A stretch of DNA of 64,000 nt from Notolepis coatsorum (Eukaryota; Chordata; Actinopteri; Aulopiformes; Paralepididae): positions 98,453,674 through 98,517,673 of the forward strand of contig OZ020598.1 of NCBI GenBank assembly GCA_963971535.1, read 5' to 3'. Positions 4,441 to 61,428 of this stretch are shown here, piece by piece (position 1 is the first letter of the stretch; the number at the start of each line of letters is the position of its first letter). Both the position numbers and the translations under genes were made by a program. Under the pieces are notes generated by a model. It saw nothing but the letters and a program-made list of their open reading frames with translations, made no database searches and was not told the origin of the DNA.

Positions 4441-4523
4441 TCGCATCCGCTGCGGCCCAGCTGGGTCTGCGGGGGAGCGAAGAAACGATGACGATTCGGA
4501 CTATAAGAAGAGACCTGAAGACA

Positions 4524-4767
4524 GGGCGGCTACGTGGCGTAGTGGGCAAGGCGCTCGCCACGAAATGCTGGAGACGCTGGGCTCATCAGTTCGAGCCCAG
4601 CGCTCCACATTTGCTTTCAGTTTAGCTGGTCGTCCGTACTAATACACATTGGCCGTATTAGGGGGTGGGAAACTGATGGGTGGGGATCGGGCGTTGTGGA
4701 CAGCGACTTCTAAAAGTATATACGAAAATATAGAAAAAATGGGAGAAAAAGTGGATCCAAAAAAAAA
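4524..4767 (+). mobile_element. tRNA-derived SINE, short form, inside BEL protease region
   Basis: The insertion begins GGGCGGCTACGTGGCGTAGT (A-box-like) and has a B-box-like GTTCGAGCCC about 60 nt later. It ends in an A-rich tail. It is flanked by a 19-nt direct repeat at 4505-4523 and 4766-4784, the mark of LINE-machinery integration. Compared with the reverse-oriented full copy at 28844-29324, about 260 nt from the middle is missing, while head and tail match. Confidence 0.92.
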
Positions 4768-4784
4768 GAAGAGACCTGAAGACA

Positions 4785-5935: not shown

Positions 5936-5943
5936 GTGTCAAC

Positions 5944-6973: not shown

Positions 6974-6981
6974 GTGTCAAC

Positions 6982-9044
6982 ATACGCCGCAGCTACTTCC
7001 CACCCACAGTGCGGCTGGAAACGTGTCAGATGGACTTGCACGTCTTCAGCGACGCCTCCGAAGTAGCCTACGGTTCGGTGGCCTACTTGCGGGCCCGAGA
7101 GGAGGGAGGAGAAATACATACCGCCTTCATCCTGGCTCGTTCAAGAATAGCCCCCCGCAAGCAACAATCGATCCCGCGTCTAGAGCTCTGCGCAGCCCTA
7201 GTAAGAGCGCAACTCGCCACATTAATCCAACGTGAACTCACCATCCCGGTGCAAAGAACAATCCTGTGGTCAGACTCCATGACCGTACTCACATGGATCC
7301 AGTCCGATTCGTGTAGATACAAGGTCTTCGTGGGAGTCAGAATCACAGAGATCCAAGATTTAACAGAAGCAGCATGCTGGAGGTACGTGGACACAAAACA
7401 GAACCCAGCAGACGTCATCACACGGGGAATGACCCTGGATGACCTCACACGTCACAATCTCTATAGTGACGGTCCCGAGTTCCTCAAGCTCCCGGAAGAA
7501 GAGTGGCCTACACCCACCCCACGGGAGGCTAGCCAAGAGGAGGCAGAGATGAAGAAATCTATGTTCTGTGGGTTGACGCATACACCAGTCCCCACAGATC
7601 CCAACATAGACGACTGCCCTACCCTTGAGAGTGCGCAGTTAAAGACATTCCTGTAGCACCACCCTGAGGTTCCCTCCACTACTGACATTAATGCAGCTAA
7701 CTACGAAGAAGCAGAACTCCTTCTGCTACAGCGAGCCCAAAGAGACTCGTTCCCCGACGAGCTAGACTGTCTGCAGGGATCAAAGCCAGTCCCGTCAGAC
7801 AGCAGACTGCTCCACTTGGCCCCTGAGAGCGACGCCCATAATCTCATCAGAGTGGGTGGTCGTCTGAGAAGAGCCCCAGACTTAACGGATGACGTCAAGT
7901 TCCCGATAGTTCTCAACAGCCGACACAAGGTCACAGAGCTCATCATAAAGAAATACGACGAGGACGTGCACCACGCCGGGGCAGAGAGAGTCTTCGCTGA
8001 GATCAGACGTCGCTATTGGATACTGCAAGGAAGAGAAGCAGTACGACGCTTCCAGCGGACCTGTCTAGACTGTCGCAAGTGGCGAGCACAGCCCAGTATA
8101 CCCCGGATGGCTGACCTACCCCCCTGTCGCCTCCGACTCGGCGACAAGCCCTTTCACTCCACCGGTATGGACTGCTTCGGCCCGCTGTATGTGAAGAAAG
8201 GAAGAGGGACGGAGAAGCGGTGGGGTATTGTATTCAAATGCATGACCACCCGAGCGATACACATAGAACTCCTTCCAACCATGAGTACGGACTCATTCCT
8301 TATGGCCTTCCGGAGATTCACAGCGCGGAAAGGAAAACGTCTATATTATTGTCTGATCACGGGACAAATTTCAAAGGCGGAGAAAGAGAGCTGAGAGAGA
8401 GCTTCCAAGCTATGGGCCCAGAACTTAAGACCCACCTCGCTCCCTCTCAGATTGATTTCCAGTTTAACCCCCCGAATGCCCCTCACTTCGGGGGAACTTG
8501 GGAACGAGAAGTACGTTCAATAAAGACAGCCCTGTACGCCGTGCTTGGGGCCCAGACCGTGGCGGAAGAAGTCCTCACGACAGTCCTCACGGAGATCGAG
8601 GGAGTATTGAACTCAAAGCCCCTCGGTTACGTCTCAAGTGATGTAGCAGATGTCGACCCAGTCACCCCCAACACTCTCTTGATGGGGCGGCTGGACCCCG
8701 CGCTCCCACAGACAGTGTACAGACCTGAAGAAGCGAACGGCCGAAGAATGTGGAGGTACAGTCAAGTATTGGCTGACAAGTTTTGGAACAGTTTCCTCCT
8801 CCACTATCTACCGTCTCTACAGACAATGGGTGAAAGAAAGAGACAATTTGACGGAAGGTACAGTCGTCATGATTATCGACCAGTCACTACCCCGAGCAAA
8901 GTGATCACTGGTGCCGACGGAAAGGTCAGAGCGGCAGAAGTGCTCGTCCAAGGGCGGACATACACCCGACCCGTGGCGAGGCTGATAGAGTTGCCAAGGC
9001 TCCCCGACTCTCTCGATGACGACCATGACCCCCTGACTTTGTGA
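6982..9044 (+). pseudogene. BEL RNase H - integrase - DUF5641 region, one stop and one frameshift
   Basis: RNase H motifs are clear: FSDASEVAYG near 7045, RLELC near 7178 and WSDSM near 7268. One in-frame TAG at 7654 ends the first segment, yet the same frame continues afterwards through the integrase zinc domain (HHAGAERVF, then CLDC, about 7965-8075). The catalytic core follows: GMDCFGP near 8166, SDHGTNF near 8360 and GTWEREVRS near 8500. A frameshift near 8335 lies between the first and second catalytic Asp. The C-terminal WRYSQVLADKFW and DUF5641-like region runs to the stop at 9042-9044. All three integrase acidic residues survive, but the frame is broken. Confidence 0.9.
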
Positions 9045-9138
9045 ACTGCCCTACCCTCACAACTGACATTGAGTAGTGGACAGTGCGGTTAATCTGTCTC
9101 TGCTTATCTAATTAGGTGCGGACTAATTAGGAGGCGGC

Positions 9139-10471
9139 TGTTACGAAGGATCAGATTAAACCGAATATATATATTTATTACTTGAGATATATTGTATAGT
9201 ATTTGTATATCGTCTGATATCCCTTGTATATTCTTTGTACATATACACGGAATATCCCTTTACCTAGTACATACCATAATATTTCGTTCTCCTATTGGAC
9301 AGCGATCCCCTAGGCGCCACGGCCATACCCCCAATGTCTAGTTCAAAGTCACCGCCAAAGACATGCCTGGACATGACCGGCTCTGCGCAAGAATACGAGA
9401 CAGAAATAAGGCTGGTACTAGATTGTTCACCTAACGTATAAATACGGCGCAGGTGAATACAGCAGTATGTTAACCAATAAGTTGAAGCCTCACACCACGA
9501 TACAACGTGCTGTGAAGTGGGCCCGTTTTGCCCCAAATAGAGCCTTGAGACCGCGTGCGAATTGATAGCTGAAGTGTCAGAGTTTAACGCTGTATCGTCG
9601 AGTTCGACCTATTCTATTATTTAAGTAATAGTCTATTATGTATAGTGTATCGTGCGGCTACCGTTCTACAGTGACCAGCATTACCAACGCTTCCTCGTAC
9701 CGAGCTAGTGTGCTTATCCAGGCTGGGCGGCTTAACCTGGTGCCGTCATCCGAGGAGCCCTAGACGAGAACCGTGTGGATATGTACACTGGATAACCTAC
9801 ACCGACGACTACAGAGCCCTTTTCGGCTGGATTATATTTGCTTTGGTCCTGTAGCTGATGGAGCGGAGAATCGTCTACACCCACAACTGTGTGGGATTTA
9901 CCCTGTGAGGAGCAACGTCGAGCCCGCCTCTAGGACCCCTGAGGCTGGCTAGCTTTCCTCCATGCGGCACTGCATACCGGAGAATAGCTGTTGTTCGTCT
10001 GCGGATCAAGGGATTATTGCACTGTCTCCTGTACCTGGACTCTCCTTATTCCTCGTTGACCCAGACTTTCGCTACCGACAAATCCTCTCCCCTGCTGGCC
10101 TACAACCGGAGGGACCCTATTAGTATCTCCAGCTGCCCTACTAGTGTACCATATATAATTCTTATGATACAGCTGATATTAATTATCTCCTGCGTAATAT
10201 TCTCATGGACTTACGCTCTTGACCTATTCATGCACATTCTTCGCCTTACAAGCGCAACTCTCAATCTTGATAAGTAAAGTAATGTAAGATAATCTTCGTG
10301 CTGCTAATAAATATTCTTCTAAACAGTATTTGTTGTGAAGCCGTGTTATTGTGGAGGTGTTCATCTCATATACATGTGTACTGTATGGCCAGTAGTAATG
10401 TACATAACTCAGTAGTGGTTTAATGATACCATACTTATTCAATAGTCAGGGAATTGTACCCCTCAGTTACA
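9139..10471 (+). repeat. 3' LTR of the BEL element, complete
   Basis: The LTR starts TGTTACGAAGG directly after a purine-rich tract (about 9126-9138) that would prime plus-strand synthesis. It ends CAGTTACA at 10471, giving TG...CA ends and a length of 1333 bp. Its distal two thirds match 121-942. At 9638-9645 it keeps the ATGTATAG site that is the hAT target in the 5' LTR. Confidence 0.92.
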
Positions 10472-19718: not shown

Positions 19719-20364
19719 TTAACACTTTCTATGCCACTCACGAGTTTTCTCTGAATTATTAATATCTCGTTGAAAGCCACTCTTTTTTTTTAGCGATCTG
19801 AAATCAGGAATTGGAATATACCAGTTGGATACCATCTGATGTCAGGTAAGGAATCTATGTTATCAGTGTTAGGATAATCAGGCTCATTTTGATGAAGATA
19901 TAAGCTGTTTTGTGAAATGTCCTCTATCGGTTTCACTGTAAAAATCCAAGAGGAAATGAACACGGCGATTATCCGTGCGCGGCTCTAATGGGCGTGCGTG
20001 TACGTATAATATTGATCATCTAGCGTTTATTTGAAAACGATTCATAAATAGGCCGACAAATATCAACGTTCTGGAATATTCCAGTAAAAGACGATTATCA
20101 TAGAATGGCCCAGAATGGACTGTTTTTTACCTCAAAACGGGTGCTTTTCAAAATGCTCTCAAACGGAAATGAAGCGATAAAAAACCAATCTGCCTTGACA
20201 GCACTGACTGGAAAAGGATTCTTTGATAAGCGACGGGCAGATTAGACACATAATTAGACACATAATTTAAAACGTAGATTAGGCGATATTAACGATAACA
20301 TTAAAGTGGATGGTGGCATTCAAGCGCTAACTCTGGCGCCACCTCGTGGCACTGAAAGTGTTAA
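19719..20364. mobile_element. piggyBac-like non-autonomous element (family 2), short copy
   Basis: The ends are TTAA-CACTTTCTATGCCACTCACG and GTGGCACTGAAAGTG-TTAA. The interior matches 33081-34010 but lacks part of the left half. Confidence 0.85.
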
Positions 20365-21272
20365 AGACAGTAGAGCTTGAGAACTTTTCGATAGGGCTTT
20401 GATTCAAACCGGTGCATGATATGGGGTTCTATATGTAGAACATGGTACAGTAAGGCATGAGTGTAAACAGTGATGCAAACCCCCTCAATGTACAGTGATT
20501 CAACCCCCCTCAATGTACAGTTCCTGCACATTGATGCTTTATACTAGTGCAAGACAGTTTCGATAGGGCTTTGAATCAAACCCCCTCAATGTACAGTTTC
20601 TGACAGCTGGGCTGTGTTGCGAAATAACGTTATGAATAAAGCGCGAAATAACAGCATATAATGTTATGAATAAAACGTTATGTTATATAACGTTTATGAG
20701 TGAATCTGGTAGAGTGAATCTGGTAGTTGTCTGGTAGAGTGAATCGCGTTGGTAGTTGTTTTGATAAATATGTACATTCCCATTTCCGCGAGTAGGTCGC
20801 TTAACATTACAAGGCTCGCTTGCGTTACCGGCGTGCGGGCGAAAACGAGCGTAGCATCACGTGGGGTCAGTGGGCCAATCAGAGCAATGCGGAAGCACAT
20901 GTTAGTTGCTTAAAGTGTTCACACGAGCCAATTAGCGAGCGCGAGCCGGTCTGCCACTATATAAGAAATCGAATATAATCGAATTATTCTGAAGTTGAAA
21001 GAAATTATACTTATGACATTACATTAACATTCCACGATAAGCAATGTATGACTTCAGTAAAACGTCATTGTACTGGATATTTAAAATGTGTTTATCGTCT
21101 TCCTGAATGAGCCATATGGGTGTGGTCCAAATCCACTTAAATGACTCAATCTTGCCATTGAATAAATAGGCCGGTCCTCCTGAAGTTCAAATGGTTTTGA
21201 TTGATTGATTGAAAATGTTATTAACATATTGCAGAATGGGTACAATACAGTACAGCTCAATACACACAATTG
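20365..21272. other. Non-coding, short tandem motifs
   Basis: A CCCCCTCAATGTACAGT motif occurs three times between about 20480 and 20600. The right end (about 21200-21272) begins a repeat that continues beyond the TTAA element at 23309. No gene is supported. Confidence 0.5.
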
Positions 21273-21705
21273 TTAACACTTTGGATGCCCAACCCGAGTT
21301 TTCTCGGGTTTACCCCCCGCGGGTTGAATGCCCATAACGAGAATATTCATTTTTTTCTCGTTCTTTTTTTATTAGTGATCTGAATTCATATTTCATCAAC
21401 CGAGTCTACCGTTGGAAAATCAGCCACCCCAGGCGCTCAGATGTGAAAATAGCGCCCCCTATCGTCTCCCAGATGGTAATTCACCCTTTTGGATTGGACT
21501 CAATGAAAATGAATGAGAAAAAAAGACCCGGACTCCACATTTTACTTCTCACTCATGTAACCGGGGTCGATCAGCTTCATGCTGGACCCTCAGAGCAGCG
21601 GGGATTATGTGTTTTTACTGTATCAATGTGGTGGATCAATAAAAGGATCTATTTTTTCGAATGGCGATCAGGAATTGGAATAATCCATTTGGATACCATC
21701 TGATC

Positions 21706-22819: not shown

Positions 22820-23308
22820 TGATCTCAGGTAAGGAATCTATGTTACCAGTCTTAGGATAATCAGACCCCTTTTCACGGAGATATACGCTTTTTCTTTTTT
22901 TTGTGATATGGCTGTTTGACTCTAAGAGCGATCAGGAACTGAGAGAATGTTCAGCGCACGGCACTAGCGTGCACACGTACACATATACTATCGATAATCT
23001 AGCGTTTATTTGAAAACGATTCATAAATAGGCCAACAAATGACAACGTTCTAGAATATTACAGTACGGGGCGATTATCATGGAATCCTCTTTTTTTCCGT
23101 GAAAACGAGGGGTTTTCTAAATACTATGTAACGGAAATGAACCGATAAAAAAACAATCTGCTTCGACAATGTTGACTGGAAATAGGTAATTGATAATGCG
23201 ACGGGCAGATTAGACACATATATTAGGCGATATTAATGCTAACATTGAAGTGGATGTGGGCATTCAAGCACTAAATGTGCGCCCCCTGCTGGGCATTCAA
23301 AGTGTTAA

Positions 23309-29330: not shown

Positions 29331-31146
29331 TTAATAATTATTATAAATATTTTCACATGTATAGCGACCAGAACACAATTTTCAAGAAAACTGTCCTACT
29401 CCCTAAGCAAACAGACAACCCCACAGCTACAGGCACTCCCTCCACTCCTGGCCTTCTTCGCCGAAGGTCCAGCAGCGGCGGTGGTGGTGGCGGAGGCAAC
29501 GGTCGTGGTCCTCTGCCGGCGTTGCTTCTTCCGGACATCACCGGTGGCATCAGGTCAGGGGAAATGGGGTTGGAGCACAGAGCGCTGCTCCATCTCTCTG
29601 CAGGCTGCCGTCATCTGCTGCATGGCGACCCGAATAGCCCATCATCAGAGAGGGGGGCCGTGAGCAGCGGAATCCTCCTCTGTTCCGGCACCCGCGCCTG
29701 CTCCAGCCATAGGTGCCGCTGGGAGAGAGTGGCCAGGGCGCGCTCCTTCCCCGCGGCTATCGCCTGCAGCTGGGTTAGGTGCAGGATGGCTCCAGCCGCC
29801 TGGGCGTGAAGGCATCCAAACTGGGGTTGATGGTCATCCAATACCGACCCGCCCGCCATCAGCCCCGACATGTAGCGCGCTAGCTGCGCGATGTTGGAGG
29901 TCGCAGCTAGGCTCTGAGTCGCGGCGATGTACACCTGGTCACTCCAATTAGCCAACTGCCTAGCCGATTTCCCTTGGGGAACCGGCTTTCGCAACGGCTC
30001 CCACACCATTTCGAGACAAAGTATGGATGCCATCAGGCTATCAAGCCGAGGCACCCCGTCCTTTAGCCCCTGGACCAAACCCACCACCCGCGTGACTGGC
30101 ACGTAGGCGGGGGTAAGGCCAACAATGCGGGAGATTAGCTGTCCCTGTGTCACGTAGGCCTCCATCGCTGGGAAGAATGGGCAGACAACGCCCGTCTCTC
30201 TCACAGGACGATGTTGCCAGAGATGACCTATCATGTCATCAGGAACACGTGCTGGCAGTGGCTGCGGCAACGCCACGCCATTAGCGGCTGCGGCCGCCGC
30301 CATGAGCTCGGGGAACAAGGCAACTCCCCTTGCGTACCTCCCTCCACGTCACTCACACACACGTACGGGAGGCTACCACGGGCGCCACCATCCGACGCAG
30401 CAGATAGCTGGGCATCGTGTCTCAGGGTCGGAGGTTCTAACCCAACCCTGGAGTACAAGGCACCCCAAGGAGATGCAACACTCCCTGCCACTCCCCGAGG
30501 GGGTTTGTGGTACGTCTCTACTGGGGCTTCGAACAAGAGAGCTCTCGCCCCCTCCATATAATCCTCAGTCTCCATCGGAAATGGAGACGAGGCAAGAGAA
30601 TTCTCGTCCAGCTCCAGCACAACATCAAAGCCAGGCCGTTCGCCCCTGCTGCTTACGACGAGAGCGAGCTGAGGCGAAGAGTCTGCGTCGCAAATCCCCT
30701 GCCACCAGAGGAGCTGTCTGCCTATCGGCCGACTGTCCACTGGCGGGGGAACCAGGGCCGGAACCAGGCCATCTCACAGGAGATGGAGGCTCAACGGCCC
30801 CTCGGAGAGGCAAACTCACCACCGGGCGCCGCCCAGGCGTATCTGGCTGCCACGACCGCGGAGCCAGAGACACCCCACGACGCACGGAGGACGCGGCTGG
30901 TGAAGGGTGACGTTGCGAGCGTCCAAACCCTCCGAAGGTGCAAACATTATGTCTTAGCTTTTCTCGTAAAATTGCGATACAATGTCCACGTAGCTCCTTT
31001 CCAACAAGTATTTTGGCACTAAACTCAAAGTGGTGTATACAGTCACTTCTACGGTGGTGAAAATAGGGAAGGAGCTGTTAGTATGGCCACGACCCCGCTT
31101 ATGTAGAGGAGCGGATGTGGGTGTGGCCAGGTGGATGGGTGTGTAC
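29331..31146 (-). mobile_element. DIRS element A, Gag half and part of 5' inverted terminal repeat
   Basis: This minus-strand element is homologous to element C (58090-61366). The terminal repeat at about 31022-31146 includes the phrase GTGGCCACGACCCCGCTTAT and breaks off at GTGTGTAC, where a large hAT element begins. The terminal repeat resumes after that hAT at 44889-44973. Gag follows from 30947. The distal boundary near 29331 is approximate. Confidence 0.8.
29353..30947 (-). pseudogene. DIRS Gag-like protein, frameshifted (element A)
   Basis: The start codon at 30947 gives MFAPSEGLDA, parallel to MSSPSEGLDD in element C. The protein then runs through several frames: 30885-30625 (ending LRRRLFASARS), 30740-30231 with METEDYMEGARALLFE, and 30318-29611 (VPDDMIGHLWQHRPVRE, FFPAMEAYV, WSDQVYIAATQSLAATSNIA). 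A proline-rich tail follows at 29550-29353. In DIRS elements this first ORF is the Gag analogue. The frame changes make it inactive. No RT, methylase or recombinase follows. Confidence 0.7.
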
Positions 31147-31268
31147 CAGTGGAGGTTGCTGACCAAATTTTTTGGCGAAGCACAAATTATTATATTATAT
31201 ATTAAATTATATTTTTAAAACATCCCCCACTGTGTGTCAGTGGTCAGTGGACACAGATGAAAACATAT

Positions 31269-32954: not shown

Positions 32955-34390
32955 TACTACCTGTACTCCACCAGGCATGTGTCAATGGAAAGATGTACTG
33001 TAAAGATGCCAAGAACAAATGCAATGAAAAGGACTGTGATGTATAGAGCAATGACTGCATGGAATTCCTTACCACCTGCATTAACACTTTGACTGCCACT
33101 CACGGCTAATCTCGGGTTTACGATAGTTACGTTGAAAGCCACACAGAGATTTCTCGGAATTATTTTTTATTTAATTTTTTTGCTATCTGAAATCATATTG
33201 CATCACGCGAGCCTACCCTAGCCTACCCAAGGGCCGCCGGCGATCAGATGTGAAAAAAGCGCCCCCTATCGTCTCCCAGATGGTAAATGGTAAATGGAAT
33301 GGACTCAATGAAAATGGATGGGGGAAAAAAAATATTCCAGTCCACATTTTCCAGTCCACTGATGCAGCCGGGGTTACCAGAGTTCATTCTGGATCCTCTG
33401 AGCCCCACTGATCATGAGTTATACTGTATTTGCTGTATTTGAGATTTATACACTTATCGATTTTTTCGAATGGTGATCAGGAATTGGAATATACCATTTG
33501 GATACCATCTGATGTCAGGTAAGGAATCTATGTTATCAGTGTTAGGATAATCAGACTCGTTTTCGAGGAGATATAAGCTTTTTTCTGATATGTGCTCTAT
33601 CGGTTTCACTGTAAAATCCATGAGGAAATGAAAACGGCTATTATCAGCGCGCGCCTCGAACGTGCGTGCGTGTATACTATTGATCATCTAGCGTTTATTT
33701 GAAAACGATTCATAAATAGGCCGTCAAATATCAACGTTCTGGAATATTCCAGTAAAAGGCGATTATCACAGAATGGGCTGTTTTTCACCTGAAAACGGGC
33801 GCTTTTCAAAATGCTCTCAAACGGAAATGAAGCGATAAAAAACCAATCTGCCTTGACAACACTGACTGGAAAATGATTCTTTGATAAGCGACAGGCAGAC
33901 ACATAGCCATAATTAAAACATAGATTAGGCGATATTAACATTAACATTGGCGCCGATGGTGGCATTCAAGCACTAAGTCGTGCGCCCCCTGGTGGCACTG
34001 AAAGTGTTAACTAAGGTTGAAGAAAAACAGACATTTAAAAAACACCTTAAAAATCATATAAGAAAGAATGGTACTGTCAGTTAAGTAAACATAGTGGGTG
34101 ATTGAGAATATGGGTATGTGTGATTGGGGAACTTAGATTTGTTATATGTGTATTTTGTATTGAGATGTATTGTTGTACTTTAAGTGAACATATATGCCTT
34201 GAAACATGATTGAGTAGATGGGTATATGTGATTGGTGAACTTACAAATATTATATAATAAAATATGTGTTATTGGGGTGTATTGTTTTATTGTATTGTAT
34301 TGATTTTATTGTATTGTATTGATTTGTGTGGACCCCAGTAATAGTAGCCTGTGGCAATGGCTAATGGGGATCCGAATAAACTAAACTACC
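32955..34390 (+). pseudogene. LINE ORF2 C-terminus and 3' UTR, split by a TTAA element
   Basis: Before the TTAA element the frame reads YSTRHV...AMTAWNSLPPAL, a typical C-terminal end of CR1/L2/Rex-like ORF2. After the element the same frame continues TKVEEKQTFKKHLKNHI to a stop at about 34084. The 3' UTR ends near 34388 in GGGGATCCGAATAAAC, followed by a poly-C run (34389-34408) and another LINE-like tail (CTGAATTTCCCCAAGGGG) at 34420-34470. Confidence 0.8.
33081..34010. mobile_element. piggyBac-like non-autonomous element (family 2)
   Basis: The ends are TTAA-CACTTTGACTGCCACTCACG and GGTGGCACTGAAAGTG-TTAA. The target TTAA is the Leu codon plus one base of the LINE ORF2 it interrupts. The minus ORFs inside (33454-33965) lack transposase features. 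Confidence 0.92.
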
Positions 34391-36437: not shown

Positions 36438-36684
36438 AACAGTAGGTTATGAATATAACCGTGTTCTATGAGTATAGTGACGCTCAGCGTCTACTGCACA
36501 TATCTCACTCCAGTGACGTGCACTGAATAAAAACTTCACAATGTACCTTTACATACCAACATCCGTCTGGCCACACCCCATCTGCTACCTACATAAGCAG
36601 GGGTGTGGCCACACACTCATCTCCTTCTCAATCATTTCACCACAAGGTAAGATCAAGGGCCGCAGTGGCGTCTAGACGCTGAGC

Positions 36685-36775
36685 GTCACTATACTCATAG
36701 AACACAGTTATATTCATAACCTACTGTTCTATGTCGTATAAGCTCTCGCTCAGCGTCTACTGCACAACGGGAGCT
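36685..36775. repeat. DIRS internal complementary region (element B)
   Basis: The first half (GACGCTGAGCGTCACTATAC ... CATAACCTACTGTT) is complementary to the element's left end at 36438-36486. The second half (CTATGTCGTATAAGCTCTCG ... TCTACTGCAC) is complementary to its right end at about 42682-42720. The two meet at GTT, the complement of the AAC at each outer end. In DIRS elements such a region templates completion of a circular DNA intermediate. Confidence 0.85.
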
Positions 36776-39606
36776 GAGCGGGAGCTGATGCTCGACAAAT
36801 GTACCCCACTGAGGCCCCCCACAACCATCAGAACCGGGGAGGACCGAGCCCCGCGACCCTCCCTAATGGAGAGATACCCTCCCTATTGGAGGACGGGAGG
36901 GAGACGGATCCGACCGTGCGAAGACGAACTCGAGCAACTTAACGCACAGGGTGAGCAGACCGTGGCTTGACCCCACAACTACGCACACGCACAACCCGCA
37001 CGCACAACCCGCATGCCACCAGGGAACGAACGGAAGGAACAAACCTCGTTACCGCCCCCAAAATCACGGGGTCAAGAGCAAAGCTCAACCCCGTGGCAAG
37101 GCCGTAGCAGCGGAGCGCGAAGGAAGACCCAGACCCAGAAGGGACTGGATCCCCCCGGAAAAAAGGGGGCCCGGAGAGGCCAATGATGCCACAGCATCAA
37201 GACCTCACCAGGCGGTCACTAGTGACACCGCCCCCCACATCGCCAGCGTATTCGGACAGGGCCCATCCAAGAGCAGGCCCTTCCCCCCACTAGCACGCCG
37301 CCTGGCTCACTGACCCTGGCATACTCAGGCAGTCAGCATGGCTGTAACTCGAAGCACTCAAGAGGCTACACCACAGCGGGAGCAGGCAGCGCACCGGGGA
37401 GACGACCTCCAGAAGAGGCCGATCCCTCAATCCAGGCAGCAGGCACTTGACCCGAGCCTGGAGCACTGCGGACGAGACAGGCGCCAAAGGGGTCAACTAA
37501 AAACAGCACCCCGGCGGAAGGGGCGTATGCTGACATTGTTGAGCACCATGTCAAAGCCTCCACCAAAAAATCCCAGACGCTCTAGAGGGGCCGAGGCAGA
37601 GAAGGCTGACACGATTAGCAGACGTCATGAACGTGCAGGGGCACACTCAACCGGGTAATCCGGGAGTTGACTCCGCTCCAACACACCAGGGAATCAACCA
37701 CCCTCTTGGTTCAACATGCAGTGGTTGTTCCTATAACCCCTCAGGAAAAAACTCCAAAACACACCTGCGGGTATACACTGGCTATACCGCAGTACAAGTG
37801 TTTTAGTTTTCAAAAAGGGGTTATCCCAGGCCTACGGGTAGACGAAAACGACTTTGGACCGGGACGTACACAGGGATGCCAGAGGAGTACTATAAAAACC
37901 ACCTCAACAGCCCCCTCTCAGCCATGCATAAGCGGGAGAAGAGAGGGGCGAAAAGAATGGAGAACGAACATCTCCATAATACCAAACCCTGTGACACCCG
38001 GGCTGACCCGGCATTTTTCCCCCTGAAAAAAGCACTAGTCCCTCAGGGTACCAGAACAGCAGATCTGCGTCCTTGGCGGACAACGGGTTAACTGACCTGG
38101 ACCAGCGTGACCAGAACCAGTCCCGTGCCATAATCACGCCAACATCCCCAACTCTAGGAGGGGGGTAGGTACGCGTGTCTATCTAAAACATTATAGAGGG
38201 CGCCACCCAGACGGTCCCATTCGTACCGCGCTCAGTGGCCCACCCCAAGGGCGTGAGACCCCTCTACCTATGCTTTGATCTATTCCGTTAACATCTCCCA
38301 GATATGAACGAGAATTCGTCGAGACAAACCTAGTAAACTGGCGCTCGGAAGAGACAAACTCCATCCCAGTTGCCCCATAAAAACGCTGTTTTAATGATGA
38401 GCAACCAAGGCGCACAAGCCTCATGTGTGATTCCTATCAGAAACACCCAGGGCCAGCACTATGTACACGTCGAGACCCAAAACACATCAATGGATAGTCT
38501 AACAAGACACCAGATACCGTTCCTCCAAGCCACCTGGGGAACGACAAGAAGCAGTTTTTTTTATTTTACATTTTTTTAGAAAAAAGAAAAAAATTATACG
38601 GACATGGGTCCCATGCGACGCGGCTGAGGGAAAACACCACCCCGTCAACCACACTTCATAAGAGGGGACGGTGAGCGACGTACCCCTATGACAGGGGGAA
38701 ACCCATGACTCAACAGACCTGTAAGGCGAGGAGTCAGGGAAACCCTAAACCATACTCCAAAAAGGAGAGGATGGGGAACCCCCAGAGAGACTTCCCACGT
38801 GAGCTGTAAAGACATATTGCAGCATTGAGCTATGTAACAATTGGGTTAGGACTCTCCGAGGAGGAGCTCTGAACTCCCCGAGGAGAAAACTCCGACACCA
38901 GAGGAGGAGGCTCTGACCCAATACACACATTACCAGTAGGGAGCAGCGCAGAAGAACCACGTCTCTACTGCGCTGCATCACCCACCAAGCTCAATAATCG
39001 AATTGAATTGAATCGAATACACATACAACAGAGCAGAACTCCTTTTCGAAGTTCTACTCACCTTGACAATCTGAGGAGGAGGTTCTGAAACTCTGAGGAG
39101 GCTCCCTCACTGGGAGGGAGGGTCCGAACTCACAGAAGGCTCTTCTCCCTGAAGAAGAGCTCTGTGAGGAGGAGGCTCTGAAAACTCCCTGAAACAGAAC
39201 CATAACATGGAACCTGACCAACTCACGGAAGTCTTACCAATAGAAACGCGCCCAGTGACGTACTCTATGGTGGGGGAATTTCCGCGGTGCACACGCCCAA
39301 TCTTTCAGGGCGTGGGACCAGGAAACTCCCCCCCCTACCCTGTAACATGCCGAACCAACAACGTGACAGGAAGCCCGAAGGACAGGGGGTTTTAACCCCT
39401 GCCCAAACAGAAAAAGGGGGAGGAAGGGTTTACCAGTTCACCCCTTTACGACCCCTCACCCCTGATACGATGTAATGACAAAGTAGAGCCATGACACCAG
39501 TCATAGCATGCTACATGAAGCATTTAACAGCTTCACATAGCTCATGTGCTAACCTGTTATCTGATTTTTACTAAGGAAAAAGAAACGCAGAACAGAGAGG
39601 GCCCCT

Positions 39607-40532
39607 TTAACACTTTCAGTGCCAGGCCGTGTTTTCCTTTTTACCCCATTGATGCCACGGTCCACGGCACGTTAATATCGCCTAATCTATGTTTTAAATT
39701 ATGCTATGTGTCTAATCTGCCCATCGCTTATCAAAGAATCATTTTCCAGTCAATGTTGTCAAGGCAGATTGGTTTTTTATCGATTCATTTCCGTTTGATA
39801 GCATTTTGAAAAGCATCCGTTTTCAGGTGAAAAACAACACATTCTATGATAATCGCCTTTTACTGGAATATTCCAGAACGTTGATATTTGTCGGCCTATT
39901 TATGAATAGTTTTCAAATAAACGCTAGATGATCGATAGTATATGTGCACGCACGTTCAAGCCGCGCGCTGATAATAGCTGCTCTCATTTCCTCATGGCTT
40001 TTACAGTGAAAACAGCTAGAGCACATATCACAAAAAAGCTTATATCTCTGTGAAAACGAGTCTGATTATCCTAACACTGATAACATAGATTCCTTACCTG
40101 ACATCAGATGGTATCCAAATGGTATATTCCAATTCCTGATCACCATTCGAAAAAATCGATAAGTATATTGATCCAACGTGTGTACAGTATAACCCATGAT
40201 CGCCGCGGCTCAGATGCTCCAGAATGAACTCTGGTGACTCCGGCTGCATGGGTGAGAAGTGAAACGTGGACTGGAATATTTTTTTTCCCCATCCATTTTC
40301 ATTGAGTCCATTCCAAAAGGGTGATTTACCATCTGGGAGACGATAGGGGGCGCTTTTTTCACATCTGATCGCCGGCGGCCCCTGGATCTCCAACGGTAGG
40401 CTTGCGTGATGCAATATGATTTCAGATCGCTAAAAAATAAATAAAAAAAATATCCGAGATTTGCCGTGACGTGGCTTTCAACGTCACAATCGTAAACCCG
40501 AGATTTGCCGTGAGTGGCGCTCAAAGTGTTAA
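39607..40532. mobile_element. piggyBac-like non-autonomous element (family 2), reverse copy
   Basis: The ends are TTAA-CACTTTCAGTGCCAGG and GTGGCGCTCAAAGTG-TTAA. It is inverted relative to 33081-34010 and nested in DIRS element B. Confidence 0.9.
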
Positions 40533-41309
40533 GAGCCCCGGTACCAGACTTACACATGTGCTTTTGTGGGCCAAAATCTAACCCAGTTGTAAATCTCAAC
40601 GACACACACAACCCTTCATCACAAAAAAAAAATGGCAAAAGTACACTCTTACTACAGAGGAACGCCGTTTTTCATAACTAGAGAGACATAAGTCCTGGAT
40701 TATGTATTGGCCACAGGCCTTGCTAAGCACACATGACAGTGACCAAACAACCTTTTCCCTAGGAAATAAATCGTTTCTCAAGCAGAAGCACAACCTCAGC
40801 AGTTTAAGCTGAGGGTTACATCGTATCCCCACAAACACAGTGACACAATATATTGTAAACAAAACATGTCTGAGAGGAGGGGGGGAAGCCCCAGGGAAAA
40901 ACCGGGGGGGTCACCCCTCCTACCTTACCCTTGATACGACCAGGTTGAACAGGTACCCCTGTTAATATGTGAACACGCTGTTCATTGTCATCACAAGCTG
41001 AGAGAAGAATTTATTCCTCAATCACATGTCACTAAGCATAGCTTCATAGGTTAATTAACCCACTTAGTTGTGAGTTCAACCATGTTACTAACGTTACATG
41101 AACACACATGTTCTCATCACAACTAAACCAGTTCATTTTTACACACGTAAAAAACAACGCCGATTTCCTAGGTAGAGAGAAGCTATACCAGCGACAAGAC
41201 AATTCATACACAACACGCGTCGTATCCTCAATGTATTGCAGCAACACACGTTTTGGAAAACATCGTTATTACAAAACATTTAGAAGGGAAGGAAAGAAGA
41301 AGTGTTAAA

Positions 41310-41445
41310 GTCCGGCAGGACTCCTACCTCCACCCTGAGCGCAGGCCGAGAGGACTGCAACACTGGTTAACGGGACAGCCGAAGTCGAACCCGGCGTCTC
41401 CTGCGTTGGTGACGAGGGTAATGTCCGCTGCGCCACCCAGCCGCC
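41310..41445 (-). mobile_element. SINE, tRNA-like head fragment
   Basis: The minus strand reads GGCGGCTGGGTGGCGCAGCG (A-box-like), then GCCGGGTTCGACTTC (B-box-like). It is related to the SINE heads at 4524 and 29324 but diverged, and lacks their body and tail. Confidence 0.6.
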
Positions 41446-42722
41446 GTTCTCCATGTTGACGAAGTCCTCGCTGGCATGGCACCCGGTGTAGGGTCGACTA
41501 ACATCCTCTGTCAAAGATGACGTCGTAGTCAGAGTGTTTAAGGCTTGTTATACTCACAGCAACGTTCAACAGTGTAGCATTAAGCTAACAGCCGCTCCCG
41601 ACTGATAGCAACACGCTAACGTTTCCTAGCCTAGTGACACAACGGGCTAGCGCCGCAGCTAACAGCTGACTGGCTAACAGTAGGCCACACACTAGCACAC
41701 AAGCTAAGCAGCTATCACCTGAACTGTACACAACGACATAACAAGCCACACTTCAGACAGGCCGCCGCCTGACTCCCTCCTCATCCTAAGAGAGAAGAGA
41801 AAAAGAAATGTCAACACAGTTTTCAACTGTGATTTAACAGACATAACAGCGGAGTCGGCACAATTCCCATATGGGCTGCAGCCGACTTGAGCATGGAACT
41901 ACCGATAAAGAAGATCCAGACCCACATTTCCTCGTGTTTAGGGTGTACTCTAACATTCATTTGAAAGATGGGGCCTTCACGGGACAGAGAAGCATCCGCT
42001 CGTCCAGAGAACCCCGGGTTTAAACCAGATCTCGGTCGCGGCCCACTAGTTTGACCATCATGGGCGTCAGACCAGGACCCTCCGTCCGTCGCCTAAGAGG
42101 CCGAGCAGAGGACCCCAATCTGGGGCCGGCCTTCGTAAAATTTTCAGCCAACCCCCATAGCATTAGCAGACAACTGGTGCTCGCACAGCAAAACATTACT
42201 CACCCAGCCCAGAAAACAACCAGTTTCTCACAACAGCCGGTGCCTCCTACAGTCCAGCTGTATAACCGGAGGTTCAATACCTATCCAGCCGCAGCAAGGA
42301 GAACTGCAGGTGGGGAGTAGATCAGCGACGCGAGCCCCTAATACGAAAAAGCCGGTGGAGGTCAGAATGATCATCATCTTCCAGACACCCCAGTGACGAA
42401 GACATTATCGCCGTATTTTCTCGAAAATAGTGAGAGAGAAAATAAAGATATAACGTCAACGTATCTCCTTGTTCTTCTGTTTTCCTTTCTTCAGCTAAAT
42501 ACTTTCTCCATGTCAAGTGATTGGTATACAGGCACTCTCTTGTGGTGAAATTTGAGAAGGAGATGAGTGTGTGGCCACACCCCTGCTTATGTAGGTAGCA
42601 GATGGGGTGTGACCAGACGGATGTTGGTATGTAAAGGTACATTGTGAAGTTTTATTCAGTGCACGTCACTGGAGTGAGATATGTGCAGTAGATGCTGAGC
42701 GAGAGCTTATACGACATAGAAC

Positions 42723-44132
42723 CACAGCTGTCTCACAGAAATCTGTTAATATGCGGATTATGCGAGCAGCATAAAAACAAAATCAAAATCTTCTAACGTT
42801 CTGATAAACCCATTTGCAGCACTGATAGTCTCCTCATCTGTCACACTGTCCGATTCAATCATGCTCTCAAAAGTTGTGATTAGCTTCTCGTGATTGTTTA
42901 CTACTGTGCTGACAATGCGTGATGAAAAGTTCCAGCGTGTTGGTGCATTTTTAGGAAGCTTACAACAACCACTTTCCTCCAAATCTTTTTTTCTCTTTGT
43001 CGACTTGGTGAAAAAAGTAGCAAAACCTGACAAGTTTGCAAAAACGATTCTAGCCTCTGGTATGCATTTTGCTCCCTGACTCAGCACGAGATTGAGCCGA
43101 TGCGCATAGCAAAGGACAAACTCTGCATATGGCGCAACTCTTTTGACTTTAGCCTGAAGTCCGTTCAATGCAGATGCCATCACAGCTGCACCATCGTACG
43201 TTTGACAAACAAGTTTCTGTTTGTAATCATAACTAGCCATCTCTCTGTCAACTAAATTAAAGACAGACTCAGCATCCCTGCCTCCTGACACATCAAAAAA
43301 CCCAATGAAACGTTCCTGTATTATGCCTGCAGCATCGACATAGCGTACAATTATGGACAGCTGGGCTTTGCAAGAAATATCTGTCGCCTCGTCTATCTGC
43401 CACGCAAAAAAACGGTGCAGCTGCAATCTCACTTTTGATCTCATCTTGAACGGTTGCAGCTATAGCTTCAATCAAGTCATTTTGTATGGTCTTAGACAAC
43501 CCAGAAAATACAGTGGCCGATTTCAAATGCGCAGCTAGAACATCATCATACAGCAGTTCTATCATCTCTCTGTAGTTTCCCTTATTATCAGACGTTAACG
43601 TCTCATCATGTTCCTGACGACCCAATAATGACACAGAATCAATCAATCTTTTCATAATGTCACGGTTTTTCCGGACCGTGTCGTTATGCTTTGCCAACTG
43701 GAGACGCTTTCCTTCATCAAGCAGAGTATCAATTCTGACTTTTCCCAACAGACTTAATTGTACTTCAGCGCTGACATGATCATTCGATTTTTCATGAATC
43801 CTTACAGACCTGTCGAAATTCTGTATATCCGCAAATCCTTCTCTTGCAAACTTTGAACACCCGAAACCTACAGCAGCAGACTTAAACATGATGCACGGCC
43901 AGCAATACGTGCGATTGGTTTGCATGCTCCCAGTTAACCACAGCACTTTGTCATACTTAGCTGGTTGAAAACGTCGTTGTCGTCCCGAGCCAAGTTGTTG
44001 ACTCAAGTTGATGTTAGGTTTTGGTCTTCCGTCTGCTTTCACTCTTAGCTTTTCTTCATAGGAGAATGTGTGAAAAGATTCCCGTAGGATCCGATCTACG
44101 ATGTTTGGAGCAGCATCCATAATTCTTTGCAA
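42723..44132 (-). pseudogene. hAT transposase, N-terminal and catalytic part
   Basis: A DUF4371/ZMYM1-like transposase starts at 44132. A TTF-type zinc finger region (RRFQPAKYDKVLWL ... TYCWPCIMF) lies at about residues 50-85. The catalytic region follows: AWQIDEATDISC with the first Asp, and QTYDGAAVMASALNGLQ with the second. A frameshift at a seven-base homopolymer near 43405 moves the frame from the 44132 ORF to the 43444 ORF. A further shift near 42768 gives a stop in the long ORF. The open frame IIRILTDFCETAVV then runs exactly to the DIRS insertion at 42722 and resumes at 36437. It is inactive as written. Confidence 0.85.
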
Positions 44133-44691
44133 AAATAATTACCTAATATAGCTATTAGCTAGCTACAACAAGTTAGTTAGAACTATACTACTGTCTTCAA
44201 CTGAGATAAAAAAAAAAGAAAAAAAAAGATATATCATCAAACGATGCAGTGCACAATAAGTTGATGAAGTTCAACAATTGAATAAAGATCTTAAAATATG
44301 AATGATTATATTAGGTAAATGAATGTTCTTCTCCACTAGTCCAGACTCCAGTCTCTTTCCAGGCAAATTGCACACGTGAGATGATGAAACTTCTAGAACA
44401 TATTGACGCCAGTCCAGCTGCAGGTACGCAGGCAATGCCAGGCATTCTCTGATTGGATTTCAAGGCTGTCAATCATTCAATCCCTGTTCGTGAATGGCGT
44501 GCGCAAAACTGCACGGACCGGGCTTAGATGACGTTAATAGCCTATTTTAATTGATTGACAGCTCGCCATTACTGCAGTTATGTGAGCAGGCCTGATCAGA
44601 GAGCTCAGAGCTGTCACTTGGCCATTTTTGAAGAAGAAAAAATTATTCACTGGCATTTATTTTTTACAGAGGAAAACATTTCTAATAAAAA

Positions 44692-51566: not shown

Positions 51567-53117
51567 GGTCCTAGTTTACAGGGTGGTTGTGACAGTGGGC
51601 ACAGATGACAGGCATTCGTGCCCCGGCAAAACCTGCCACCAGACTCCCGAGGACTACGCCGTGACCAGTGATTTATGATGACTGGGATGGGGAAGGAGGA
51701 AGAGCTGTCGAGAGGGTTCACAAAAAACATAATACCATGGTCGGATGGGAGTGCTGGGACAATTAAGTTGAGACGGTTATTAGCTACTTTGAGAGTGTTG
51801 GATGAGCAGTGATCAGCAGGACCCACAGTGGGATGCTCAACATAATGACCAAGTAAGGATTCTAGTGCAGGGTGATGCTGAGGTAAGTATCAATCAGAGT
51901 TAAAAGCAATGTGTTGGATAAAATTACATATGAGCTGTTTAATTCCCCTTGGACTGGGATGCAGCCCATCTGGTTTATAGAGGTCAAATCTTGTCCAAAA
52001 ATAATCAAAATTACTAATAAAACCATGTGCAGTTGCAATACAAAATGATTTTAGCCATTCATGGAGGCAAAAAATACTGCTAAAATGTTCAGGACTTTTT
52101 GAGGGAGCTGGGATGGGACCAGAGAACACACAGGTTCTACCCAAGCTCTGTATTGTCATTGCCAGAGAATCCAGCTGGTCACGGAGATCCACAGATTGGC
52201 CACGCATGACGTCGTTGGTACCCACGTGGATGATCAGTGTGTGAGCTGAGGGCACTGGAATCAGTTCTGAGATGTCTGAAACCTTACTGCCTGGGAGGCA
52301 GAAAGTGACAGCACCTGGGAGTTCGACATGTCTTACAATGGAGTCACCAATGATCAGCACTTCAGGTTGACCATTCCTGCAGCCCCCCCCCCCCCCCCCC
52401 CCCCCCGTAAACAGAAAGTTTGGGGTGAAGAAGAGTCTGACTGTTAGCCAAACCAGTCACCAGGGCGGTGTCTGGAGCAGTAGTTGAATGCGGTTCACCT
52501 GCGCAGGAAGACGGCCGCGAATCATCACATGTGATGTCGTCATCGCTGGCCACAGCAGTGTCCAGAGGTGCATTGTGCTGATGAGACGAAAGCTGGAGGC
52601 CGGCAGGAGAGATCCCAGAGTTGAAGACAGCAGTCGGAGAGCAGCGCCGACGGCGCTTCCCTCTGGACACAGGGGACGTCGGGGAAAACCGTCTCGTTCT
52701 CACCGAGCTGGAGAAGCTCGCTCCAGAGTAACCGGCTACAGGCTGCTCCAAAAAAGCCGGATGGACAGTCGACGCGCCTGTGGAAGCTAACTCTGTTAGC
52801 CCTTCAAGTGGAGCAAACTGGTTGTACAGCAGAAACGGGTCATTATCCACGTCTGGGAAGAACAGGGGGAGCGATACCCTTCTTCCTTTACCCTGCTTTA
52901 CTACACACGACCAAGGAAGAGGAAGCGCAGTAGAAGAGGGGTTTTCCAGGAGATCCAACCGGGAGACGAGCACAGCCTTTTGCTGGATGATGTCGTCCAG
53001 GAGGCACTCGATAGTACGGAGACCACACCTGAGACTGGATAACTTGGTTTCCACTGTGGTGAGTGTTGACATCTTGTAAGATAGCTTTTTATTCTCACCG
53101 TATAAAACAGTGTACAC
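51567..53117 (-). pseudogene. LINE ORF1 with SGNH esterase domain, frameshifted at G-run
   Basis: ORF1 starts at or before 53117. A Ser/Pro-rich N-terminal half (with a segment KLSSLRCGLRTIECLLDDI that may form a coiled coil) runs to a C-run at 52383-52406, read as poly-Gly on this strand, where the frame breaks. In another frame the esterase follows: VLIIGDSIVRHVELPG (block with the GDS nucleophile), IIHVGTNDVMRGQ and LYKPDGLHPSPRG (catalytic Asp and His block), ending at 51890. Such esterase ORF1 proteins are typical of CR1/L2 LINEs. The stretch 51567-51889 is the inter-ORF region leading to ORF2. Confidence 0.87.
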
Positions 53118-57612: not shown

Positions 57613-57822
57613 CTAAGCGTCACTATACTCATAGAACACGGTTATATTCATAACCTACTGTTCTATGTCGTATAAGCTCTCGCTCAGCGTCTACTGCACA
57701 ACGGGAGCTGAGCGGGAGCTGATGCTCGACAAATGTACCCCACTGAGGCCCCCCACAACCATCAGAACCGGGGAGGACCGAGCCCCGCGACCCTCCCTAA
57801 TGGAGAGATACCCTCCCTCATA
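57613..57822. mobile_element. DIRS fragment D, B-type internal complementary region
   Basis: GCGTCACTATACTCATAGAA through GGAGAGATACCCTCCCT matches 36692-36890 of element B almost base for base. Both sides are cut. The left abuts a minisatellite and the right abuts the 3' side of a LINE. Confidence 0.85.
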
Positions 57823-58330
57823 GATGTGAAGTTCTGTGTATTGTGATTGTGATTAATGTGTTGTCTTGTTTCATGTAAATAATAATAAAAAAAAAATTAT
57901 CAAAAAGAAATGGTAAATAAGACGCTCTGATTGGGCATTTCCCATTTTCACACTGAAATCTTTCTGTTAAATAGTTTTGAAACCAACTGCAAGCACCTGT
58001 ATCAAAGCCAACACTCTTTAATCTTTGTAATAGGAGACGGTGGTCAACAGTATCAAACGCCTTTGACAAATCTACAAACAAACAATGTAATTTATAACGA
58101 AGGTTATTCTATAACCCTAGTTATATGAGTATAGCGAGCGCTCTGCTCTATTGGAACTATCCCTTTAATCATACTATCAATGAAAAAACGTTCTCCACAT
58201 GTACAAACCTACTCACCTCTGCCTGGCCACACCCACATCCGCTCCTATATAAGCGGGGTCGTGGCCACACAATCAGCTCCTTCCCAAGTCTTTCACCAAA
58301 AGGGAAGACCGTGGGGTCCTCAGTGAGTCA

Positions 58331-58425
58331 GAGCAGAGCGCTCGCTATACTCATATAACTAGGGTTATATAATAACCTTCGTTATAAATCGTATAGCTTT
58401 ACGTTCTGCTCTGTTGGAACACAGG
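58331..58425. repeat. DIRS internal complementary region (element C)
   Basis: GAGCAGAGCGCTCGCTATAC ... CCTTCGTTATA is complementary to the left end at 58093-58150. The adjoining CGTATAGCTTTACG ... TGTTGGAAC is complementary to the right end at 61332-61363. They meet at AAT, the complement of the ATT at both outer ends. Confidence 0.88.
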
Positions 58426-59869
58426 AGCTGAGCAGAGCGAAAAGCCCCTACAACCATCAGAATACCAGGGAGGATCCGAGCCCCCCGGCCCCCCCTAGTG
58501 GGGGAGGGAGATCAGACCTGACTGTGCAAAGAGGGTTTAGCACCTTAAACGCACAGGGTGAGCAGACGTGGGACTTACCTTTGTTTAGAAGGGCCCGCGA
58601 CCACTTGAGCGTGCATCCCAGGGAACGGACGTGAAGCAAGAAACCCCCGTCACAGCCCCCAACATCACAGGGTCGGGGTTCAATAACCCAAACCCTGTGG
58701 CAAGGCCGTAGCAGCGGAGCGCGGAGGAGGTCCCAGCTCTAGGACAACCCAATGACTAGGACTCCCTGAAAAAGGGGCCTGGTGAGGCCAATGAGGCTGC
58801 GGCATCGAGACCCCACCAGACGTCACTGGTGACACCACCCCCCACATCGCCAGCGTATCGGACAGGGCCTAAATCAAGTGAAGGCCCTTCCCCCCTTGGC
58901 ACGCCGCTCTTAAGCGCTCTTTTTAAAAAAAGGCCACCCCCCCACAACACTGTGGGGCCAGTCGGCGTGCCGGGGAGACAACAGGTCCCAAGAGCAGAAC
59001 TCGACCTGTGCCCGGAGCACTGCGGACTAGACAGGCGCCTAAGGGGTCTACTGCAAGAACAGTACCCCGGTGGAAGGGGTGTTCGGTATGCTGTGCACCA
59101 TGTCACAAACTCCACGAAACCCGACCCTGCCAATTTATCACGCCAGCGGGGTCGAGGTTCAGAGAAGAGGCTGACACAATTGGCAGACGTCATGAAAGAT
59201 GCGGGGGCATACTCTCGGGCAGACGGGGTCAGGCCCGGCCTCAACCCGAGAGTCGACTCTGCTACCAAAACACCAGGGGAGCCAACCACCCCCCTATGTT
59301 TAGTTTAACAGGAGGCGGTTGTTCCCTTAACCCACCAAGAAAAACTCAGAAACATAACTGCGTGTATACACAGGCTATACAAGCAGTTCAATAGTTTCAG
59401 ATTTCAAAGGGTTAACCCAGGCCAACAGGTTATCGATGACGAGGCACGACCTGGGCCTGGCGGACCGGGACCTACACAGGGATGCCTAGAGGAGTTGACA
59501 GGGCAACCTCCTCGACAGCCCCCTCCCATCCCTGGCCTAGCAGGGAGGGAGGGGTGAAACAAATGGAGAAGGACCAAGCCCCCCTAACATAGCACAAAGG
59601 TACAACACAGTATGGACCGAAGCACGTCACTGTTAAGGGCAACTCGTGGTGGCATACACATGACACACACATCCATGACATCAATCCTCGCAACGTCCGG
59701 CCCAACCCAGCATTTCCCCCCCGGAAAAGCACAAAGTCCTTCGGGGTACCAGAACAGCAGATCTGCACCCCGGCGGGCAACTGACCAGGTCCGGCGCAAC
59801 CAGAACCAGTCCCGTGTCCTAGTCACGCCACCATTCCCAGTCCTAAGAGGGGGATAGGTACGCGTGTCG

Positions 59870-61077
59870 AGTCAGGTGCAGGATGGCTCCAGCCGCCTGG
59901 GCGTGGAGGTACCGTTGACGGTCGTCCAGTACCACCCCGCCCGCCATCAGCCCCGACATGTAGCGCGCCAGCTGCGCAATGTTGTAGGTTGCAGCCAGGT
60001 TCTGTGTCGAGGTGATGTACAGTTTGTACACCTGGTCACTCCACGTAGCCAACTGCCTAGCCGATTTCCCCTGGGGAAATGGCTTACGTAATGGCTCCCA
60101 CACCATCTCGGGGCAAAGGATGAATGCCATCGGGCTATCAAGTCGAGGCACCCCGGCCCCAGGACCAAACCCACCAGCTGTGTGACTGGCATGTAGGAGG
60201 GGGTAAGGCCGACGATGCGGGAAATGACCAGTCCCTGTGCCACGTAAGCCTCCATTGATGGGAAGAATGGGCAGACAACGCCTGCCTCCCTCACAGGACG
60301 GTGTTGCCAGAGATGAGCTATCATGTCATCGGGAACAGGTGCCAGCGGTGGCTGCGGCAACGCCACACCATTAGCGGCTGCGGCGGCCGCCATGAGCTTG
60401 GGGAACAAGGCAAGCAACTCCCCTTGCATACCTTCTTCCACATCACTCGCGTTCGGGAGGCTGCACACACTGTCTCCAAAAGATAAGCGGGAGCCAGCAT
60501 CCGATGCGGCAGATAGCAGGGCATCTCATCTCCGGGGTGGAGAATTTAACCCAGTCCCGGAGCACAAGGGTCCCCAGGGAGACGTAGCACTCTCTGCCAC
60601 TCCCCGAAGGGGAGAGTGTGTCGTCTCCGCCGGGCCTTCGAACAAGAGAGCCCCCGCCTCCTCCATGTAATCCTCAGTTTCCATCGGATATGGAGAAGAG
60701 GCGAGGGAACTCTCGCTCGGATCCAGCACAACACTGCCACTAGGCTGTTCACCCCCGCTGTTCGCCGTCATAAGACAAGAACGAGCCGAGGCGAAGAGTC
60801 TGCGATGCAAATCCTCCGCCACCAGAGGAACTGTCCGCCTATCGGCCGACTGCCCTCTGGCGGGGAAACCAGGGCCGGAACTCAGCCACCTCACAGGAGA
60901 TGGGAGCTCAGCGGCCCCTCGGCGAAGCAAATTCCTCTCCGGGCGCCGCTCAGGCGCACCTGCCTGCCACAACCGTGGAGCTAGGAACGCCCCACGATGC
61001 ACCGAGGACGCTGCGACAGTGAAGCGCTGGTGGAGGGTAGAACTGTAGTCGTCTAGGCCCTCCGATGGTGAAGACAT
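59870..61077 (-). pseudogene. DIRS Gag-like protein (element C), frameshifted and C-terminally deleted
   Basis: It starts MSSPSEGLDDYSSTLHQRFT at 61077 and stays open to 60526, with an acidic METEDYMEEAGALLFE segment. After a frame change it continues from 60468 with ELLALFPKLMAAAAAANGVA, VPDDMIAHLWQHRPVRE and FFPSMEAYVAQG. It changes frame again near 60160 to MVWEPLRKPFPQGKSARQLA and AQLARYMSGLMAGG, then ends at the deletion junction. The family assignment rests on the DIRS-type ends. The protein has no catalytic motif. Confidence 0.72.
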
Positions 61078-61428
61078 ATTGCTTTATTTTCTCGAAAATT
61101 AGTGAGAGATAAAAAACAAAGATACATTGTCAACGCAGCTCCTTTACCAACTAACTACTTTTAGCACTAAACTAAAGCGGTGTATAATACACAAACTTCT
61201 CTGTGGTGAAAGTAGGGAAGGAGCGGTTGTGTGGCCACGACCCCGCTTATTTAGGAGCGGATGTGGGTGTGGCCAGGCAGAGGTGTGTACATGTGGAGAA
61301 CGTTTTTCATTGATAGTATGATTAAAGGGATAGTTCCAATAGAGCAGAGCGTAAAGCTATACGATTTATAACTACATTAACCGCCGAGATTGTACTGTGT
61401 TTTTCTCTAAAACCAGATTGGTGTTGGT

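Follow-up and report, generated by a model that had tools for sequence, protein, structure and literature searches.

The DNA analysed here is a stretch of 64,000 nucleotides from Notolepis coatsorum (NCBI GenBank assembly GCA_963971535.1, contig OZ020598.1, positions 98,453,674 to 98,517,673 of the forward strand), which we call the window and in which positions are counted from the first letter. It contains an element, named B, that has the layout of a DIRS1-like retrotransposon and reads in sense along the minus strand of the window, its 5′ end lying at 42722 and its 3′ end at 36438. Element B is structurally complete, with inverted ends, an internal complementary region (ICR) and AAC on both sides. 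Its structural parts, with the inverted terminal repeats (ITRs), are as follows:

36438..42722, minus strand: DIRS1-like element B
36438..36440: AAC at the 3′ border (GTT in sense)
36438..36462, minus strand: right extension, 25 nt outside the ITR match, placed from the ITR alignment and containing the palindrome GGTTATGAATATAACC
36463..36646, minus strand: right ITR
36673-36766: ICR of 94 nt near the 3′ end, where complements of both outer ends meet at GTT
36673..36728, minus strand: ICR half complementary to the right end 36438-36493 (55/56)
36726..36728: GTT overlap of the ICR halves, the circular junction (AAC in sense)
36726..36766, minus strand: ICR half complementary to the left end 42682-42722 (98%)
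39611..40528: nested insert of 918 bp with TTAA on both sides (39607-39610, 40529-40532)
42539..42722, minus strand: left ITR, 184 nt; the first ~20 nt differ from the right ITR and the remainder is nearly identical
42720..42722: AAC at the 5′ border (GTT in sense)

The ITRs are 184 nt long with a divergent tip of ~20 nt, and a long pair of inverted arms within them (36530-36631/42552-42653) aligns over 102 nt at 99% identity, which confirms the original prediction, made from the letters alone, that the outer ends are inverted repeats. Two further pairs of arms tie the ends to the interior, 36438-36493/36673-36728 (56 nt, 98%) and 36726-36766/42682-42722 (41 nt, 98%). That an internal region joins the complements of both ends at a 3-nt GTT had been predicted correctly, but its coordinates, given as 36685-36775, were shifted by ~10 nt. 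The longest exact inverted matches, 59 nt from end to end and 33 nt from end to ICR, stand against at most 12 and 10 nt in 500 single-base shuffles, so chance is excluded as their source. The borders read AAC/AGTAGGTTATG... (AAC/AGTAGG) and ...CGACATAG/AAC (CATAG/AAC), and the predicted AAC cores are thereby present on each side. B has the ITR/ICR arrangement instead of the split direct repeats that mark Ngaro elements.

This anatomy can be compared with known fish elements. The survey of Piednoel et al. (2011, PMC3266345), in the portion considered here, tabulates 28 annotated DIRS1-like elements, among them three from ray-finned fish (GaDIRS1, GaDIRS2 and TnDIRS1a). According to the same portion, all three have a GTT start, an AAC junction and ICR halves of 36-46 and 56-57 nt, their right extensions measure 26-27 nt and their conserved ITRs 144-148 nt; TnDIRS1a ends in GAT, and GTT/AAC also occurs in the hemichordate element SkoDIRS2, so that the pair is not confined to fish (PMC3266345). 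As far as these tabulated features go, B shares the GTT start, the AAC junction, ICR halves (41 and 56 nt) and an extension of ~25 nt, together with the divergent ITR tip, a length above 5 kb and the lack of a target duplication; in sense it carries GTT at both ends. Its outer anatomy is therefore that of a fish DIRS1 element, with a small difference in ITR length.

Element B belongs to a family. In the genome of 3.42 Gb, a 353-nt end region found 3,797 candidate places, of which 40 were scored, all at 94-100% identity and with the window included. A 28-nt pattern across the ICR junction, allowing at most 2 mismatches, found 76 places and its reversed form none; 30 of the 40 scored end-region places are among these 76, the other 46 lying elsewhere. 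The 76 include B itself and a fragment at 57613-57818 in the window. The 20 best places after the window, ranked among the 40 by similarity to the B ends, were fetched with flanks. All 20 share at least ~0.7 kb of the B interior, and 11 have both ends within the 10 kb fetched, which gives a depth of 20 copies near the ICR and ~10-14 over most of the body. Two copies are full length without large indels (L032, 5,345 nt; L037, 5,371 nt), placing the element at ~5.4 kb. The 3′-border AAC is found in the window and in 17 of the 18 fetched copies in which that end survives (L037 reads ATC; L049 and L050 lack the end), and the 5′-border AAC in the window and 10 of the 11 copies with a located 5′ end (L042 has AAT). 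Pairwise Kimura two-parameter distances run from 1.8 to 3.8% with a mean of 2.9% (210 pairs, 21 copies including the window), the relationships are star-like, and every copy is at least 1.8% away from its nearest partner. A divergence of ~3% without close pairs is the pattern of one recent burst. The mapping of copies across the genome, which the original prediction had proposed as a check, has in this way shown the gene-free interior of B to be recently amplified, a family and not a relic.

Two smaller observations concern these sequences. The fragment at 57613-57818 is a 99% copy of the ICR region of B alone (36679-36884), lies beside minisatellite-like repeats and has no complete element end. 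The nested insert, which the original prediction did not mention, is absent from all seven fetched copies displayed at the insertion point, where a single TTAA stands. Its ends and target suggest a piggyBac-like miniature inverted-repeat transposable element; relatives at 81-88% lie in the window at 19803-20366, 21361-21704, 22820-23220 and 33081-33939.

Between the ICR and the left ITR the interior is made up as follows:

36767..42321, minus strand: body without detectable genes, ~4.6 kb without the nested insert
42322..42405, minus strand: 27-codon gag-start remnant with its stop, in the frame MSSSLGCLEDDDHSDLHRLFRIRGSRR
42406..42538, minus strand: 5′ leader between the left ITR and the gag start

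Known DIRS1-like elements carry gag, a reverse transcriptase (RT)/RNase H/methylase region and a tyrosine recombinase (YR), as listed in the survey portion cited above (PMC3266345). In contrast to the elements described there, B has no detectable gene of these kinds apart from the 27 codons of gag. The longest stop-to-stop frame, 153 aa, spans the nested insert of the window copy, and the longest otherwise is 152 aa (window, L032, L033 and L037). Where at least 4 fetched copies are aligned, stops common to at least 60% of the copies number 66-82 per frame in all six frames, and outside the nested insert the longest stretch free of a shared stop is 447 bp. Stops shared among copies only ~3% apart mean that the ancestor of these copies already lacked long frames; B as a decayed autonomous copy was rejected on this ground. 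Substitutions are not periodic by codon position in any of 17 bins (lowest p 0.07). A Pfam search with six-frame translations of 36700-39608 and 40530-42560, stops written as X, returned no match at E<=1 on either strand, while in other parts of the window the same library does detect RVT_1, the Pao peptidase and DUF4371. No RT/RNase H or methylase coding was thus detected in six frames. A YR likewise has no Pfam match; Pfam may miss some DIRS YRs, but the shared stops would confine one to a frame of at most 447 bp. The earlier statement that B holds no recombinase, RT or methylase is borne out at this threshold, and the RT/YR remnant that would have made B an ordinary decayed DIRS was not detected by the Pfam search.

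The remnant MSSSLGCLEDDDHSDLHRLFRIRGSRR at 42405-42322 is the sole coding trace found in B. Its frame and stop are kept in 9 of 12 matched places, the exceptions being L036 with a frameshift, L044 with a deletion and L047, an older relative that lacks the ATG. No Rfam family was found in the element and ARAGORN found no tRNA. At 41340-41450 (minus) in the body, tRNA-like A/B-box wording can be made out by eye, perhaps from an old short interspersed element head; ARAGORN calls no tRNA there.

Integration can be read at the target of B in the window, which is the following feature:

42758..44138, minus strand: hAT-type transposase frames interrupted by B, with DUF4371 in 42758-43459

The hAT label follows the original prediction, the Pfam match being DUF4371. 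Three independent sites indicate integration at one AAC without further duplication. For the hAT site, a query in which a single AAC links the two flanks matches, over its positions 1-318, 19 of the 28 genomic places listed, 13 of them over exactly 318 nt and the other six over 279-323 nt; this one-AAC form was the only query, and the result is judged by match length, the junction letters not having been seen. These empty sites came from the genome search, and no uninterrupted hAT copy was found in the fetched loci. At the second site (L043) a B copy lies inside a gag frame, and joining the frame through one AAC gives gap-free alignments to two gag-like relatives in the window, A and C (scores 184 and 188), which fall with two AACs (175 and 179) or none (173 and 173). 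At the third (L045) the copy interrupts a tandem array of 20-bp units, which is made whole again by one AAC. At all three sites a target duplication extending past the AAC was rejected, in agreement with what had been predicted. It had also been argued that the hAT frame reads straight across once one AAC is kept; this is true, but since AAC is one codon the frame stays open whether one AAC, two or none is kept, and the test does not discriminate. An A or T precedes the AAC in 18 of 19 sites, and a C follows it in 7 of 12.

The relation between ends and ICR was followed into older relatives found in the fetched loci, one ~90% identical to B (L041r) and three ~80% (L045r, L048r and L047r), and into C (~66-75%). 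The right end agrees with its own ICR at 98% in B, 93% in L041r, 98% in L045r, 100% in L048r and 98% in C, compared with 68-88% against the ICRs of other subfamilies; L045r and L048r act as one subfamily (95-96%). Within the family, the right ends of 18 B copies match their own ICR at 994 of 1005 positions. Ends and ICR have co-evolved across the subfamilies, as the DIRS model predicts if the ends are rebuilt from the ICR in each round.

The relatives also speak to the origin of the body of B:

29354-31154: DIRS gag-like fragment A, 78% to C, with the ITR only partly left
58101-61372: DIRS-like relative C, with both ITRs and its own ICR; broken gag-like frames at 59843-61083 (minus)
36444..38179, minus strand: 3′ part of B, homologous (67-75%) to C 58101-59868

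The gag-like frame of C begins MSSPSEGLDDY..., its ATG (near 61077) corresponding in position to the gag-start remnant of B, and the sense strand of C has no Pfam match to RT or YR. C 61026-61372 is ~66% identical to B 42351-42722. The homology between B and C therefore flanks the gag of C on either side. For the gag itself the comparison, at the sensitivity used, finds nothing corresponding in B, where a segment of ~1.4 kb (~40900-42290) stands in its place. In C, homology to the gag of A stops at 59871 and homology to the 3′ part of B starts at 59868. The gag-bearing element at L043, cut at 9924 in the sequence fetched, has ~1 kb without long frames after its gag stop, in which two pieces match B 40604-40881 (68%) and 39190-39519 (73%), so a relative with gag already had part of the B body downstream of that gene. 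This genome is rich in gag-like frames (14,749 candidates, most of the 150 scored and listed being without a stop in the matched stretch). Against public proteins the gag-like frame found one unnamed match, P0001, at 51% identity.

Taken together, we consider it very probable that B is a DIRS1-like retrotransposon of large size and non-autonomous kind, which would be moved in trans through an RNA/circle cycle. DIRS ends around a gene-free interior that has been amplified into many near-identical copies are what a non-autonomous DIRS1-like derivative, the class we infer for B, would present. The suggestion of a non-autonomous DIRS lineage in the original prediction finds support in the ends and ICR, in the one-AAC integration and in the gene-free interior of the young copies. 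With its genes lost and its end signals kept, B probably borrows the enzymes of a relative. B would be transcribed from its ITRs, and the reverse transcriptase of a relative would copy the RNA and rebuild the missing ends from the ICR. The product would be a circle joined at a single AAC, which a relative's tyrosine recombinase would insert at a genomic AAC.

Several points weigh against this reading. Two copies, L037 and L042, have variant borders, and the conserved ITR of B, ~164 nt, is longer than the 144-148 nt that the cited survey portion gives for the three fish elements. The agreement of ends with their own ICR could stem from gene conversion or recombination between them. The copies were chosen by similarity to the window ends, so the spread of ages leans young. 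A limited genome search, with 46 of the 76 ICR-junction places unread, found no autonomous partner with B ends, the relatives seen being gag-bearing only and ~65-75% identical. PF05869, the only methylase model searched, has no match in this genome; among 14 control genomes the same model matched in just one, and the null is therefore weak evidence that does not amount to an absence of DIRS. A search with PF00589 gave 18 matches among 55 candidates, 7 of which have an equal 419-aa open frame and an equal score (judged by length and score, the sequences not having been compared); for one match (L051), the 651 nt downstream hold no DIRS ends. As a separate observation on the tyrosine-recombinase matches (G000:C6:87969783-87970010 and L051), the 651 nt downstream of the one followed hold a 31-nt direct repeat and intron-like breaks; perhaps these matches mark a young Ngaro- or Crypton-like family.

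As a refinement of the non-autonomous reading, it is possible, if doubtful, that B takes part in a wider system lacking the polymerase genes, in which gag is all that A, C and L043 provide, RT and YR being drawn from elsewhere. The stretch after the L043 gag with its two pieces of B-like body, the close succession of gag and B-like sequence in C, the abundance of gag-like frames and the lack of PF05869 matches would fit such a system. However, RT and YR could follow in full copies, since L043 is cut short and C may have arisen by internal deletion, and Pfam may miss the DIRS YR and methylase, as the control genomes indicate for PF05869. A broader form of this idea is more tentative still: B may be part of a long-lived, layered system of DIRS parasites, in which gene-free 5.4-kb elements depend on gag-bearing ones without polymerase genes, subfamilies ~10-20% apart always rebuild their ends from their own ICR, and RT and recombinase come from elements sharing little sequence with them.

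It is improbable that B moves as a DNA circle by tyrosine recombinase alone, in the manner of Cryptons and without an RNA stage. AAC integration without further duplication fits any tyrosine-recombinase element, and the genome does contain tyrosine-recombinase frames, seven of them alike in length and score; yet a pure DNA circle needs no ICR, and here the ICR follows the ends from one subfamily to the next. That B is an ordinary autonomous DIRS copy decayed in place, as its DIRS ends, ICR and gag-start remnant might suggest, is very improbable given the stops shared among young copies, the lack of any Pfam domain found in B and a C gag that has no counterpart although the DNA on both its sides aligns at 66-75%.

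Elsewhere in the window, direct repeats (121-321/9638-9838 and 594-736/10111-10253) surround Pao-type frames with Peptidase_A17 and Integrase_H2C2, so that 121-10253 is a long terminal repeat (LTR)-type element. A frame at 51890-52456 has similarity to GDSL/SGNH hydrolases (E 1.8e-6, below the Pfam cut-off).

B can be compared with two other kinds of retrotransposon derivative. LARDs are large non-coding derivatives of LTR retrotransposons, with a gene-free body of autonomous size between functional ends, and they are moved in trans. B resembles them in these respects, but LARDs have LTRs and rely on a DDE integrase, whereas B has ITRs and an ICR and would rely on a tyrosine recombinase. Like SIRE, B is a non-autonomous derivative of a tyrosine-recombinase retrotransposon with both ends kept; SIRE, however, consists of 185 bp, ~30 bp and 220 bp from VIPER with split direct repeats, in contrast to the ~5.4 kb, ITRs and ICR of B. 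In the literature covered, which did not extend to Repbase or most subscription journals, we found no coding-free DIRS1 family and no use of the phrase "non-autonomous DIRS"; described cases may exist beyond it.

According to the part of a 2017 review used here, the DIRS replication model, in which ends are rebuilt from the ICR, a circle is formed and integration is site-specific, is experimentally not fully proven, and one mutant strain of Dictyostelium has been shown to contain DIRS circles (PMC5633606). In a family that has intact ends but no genes, the sequence signals that are needed stand apart from the proteins. The subfamilies of B provide natural covariation evidence that the ICR and the ends are copied from one another, and B-like elements could act as minimal tagged substrates for the role of the ICR.

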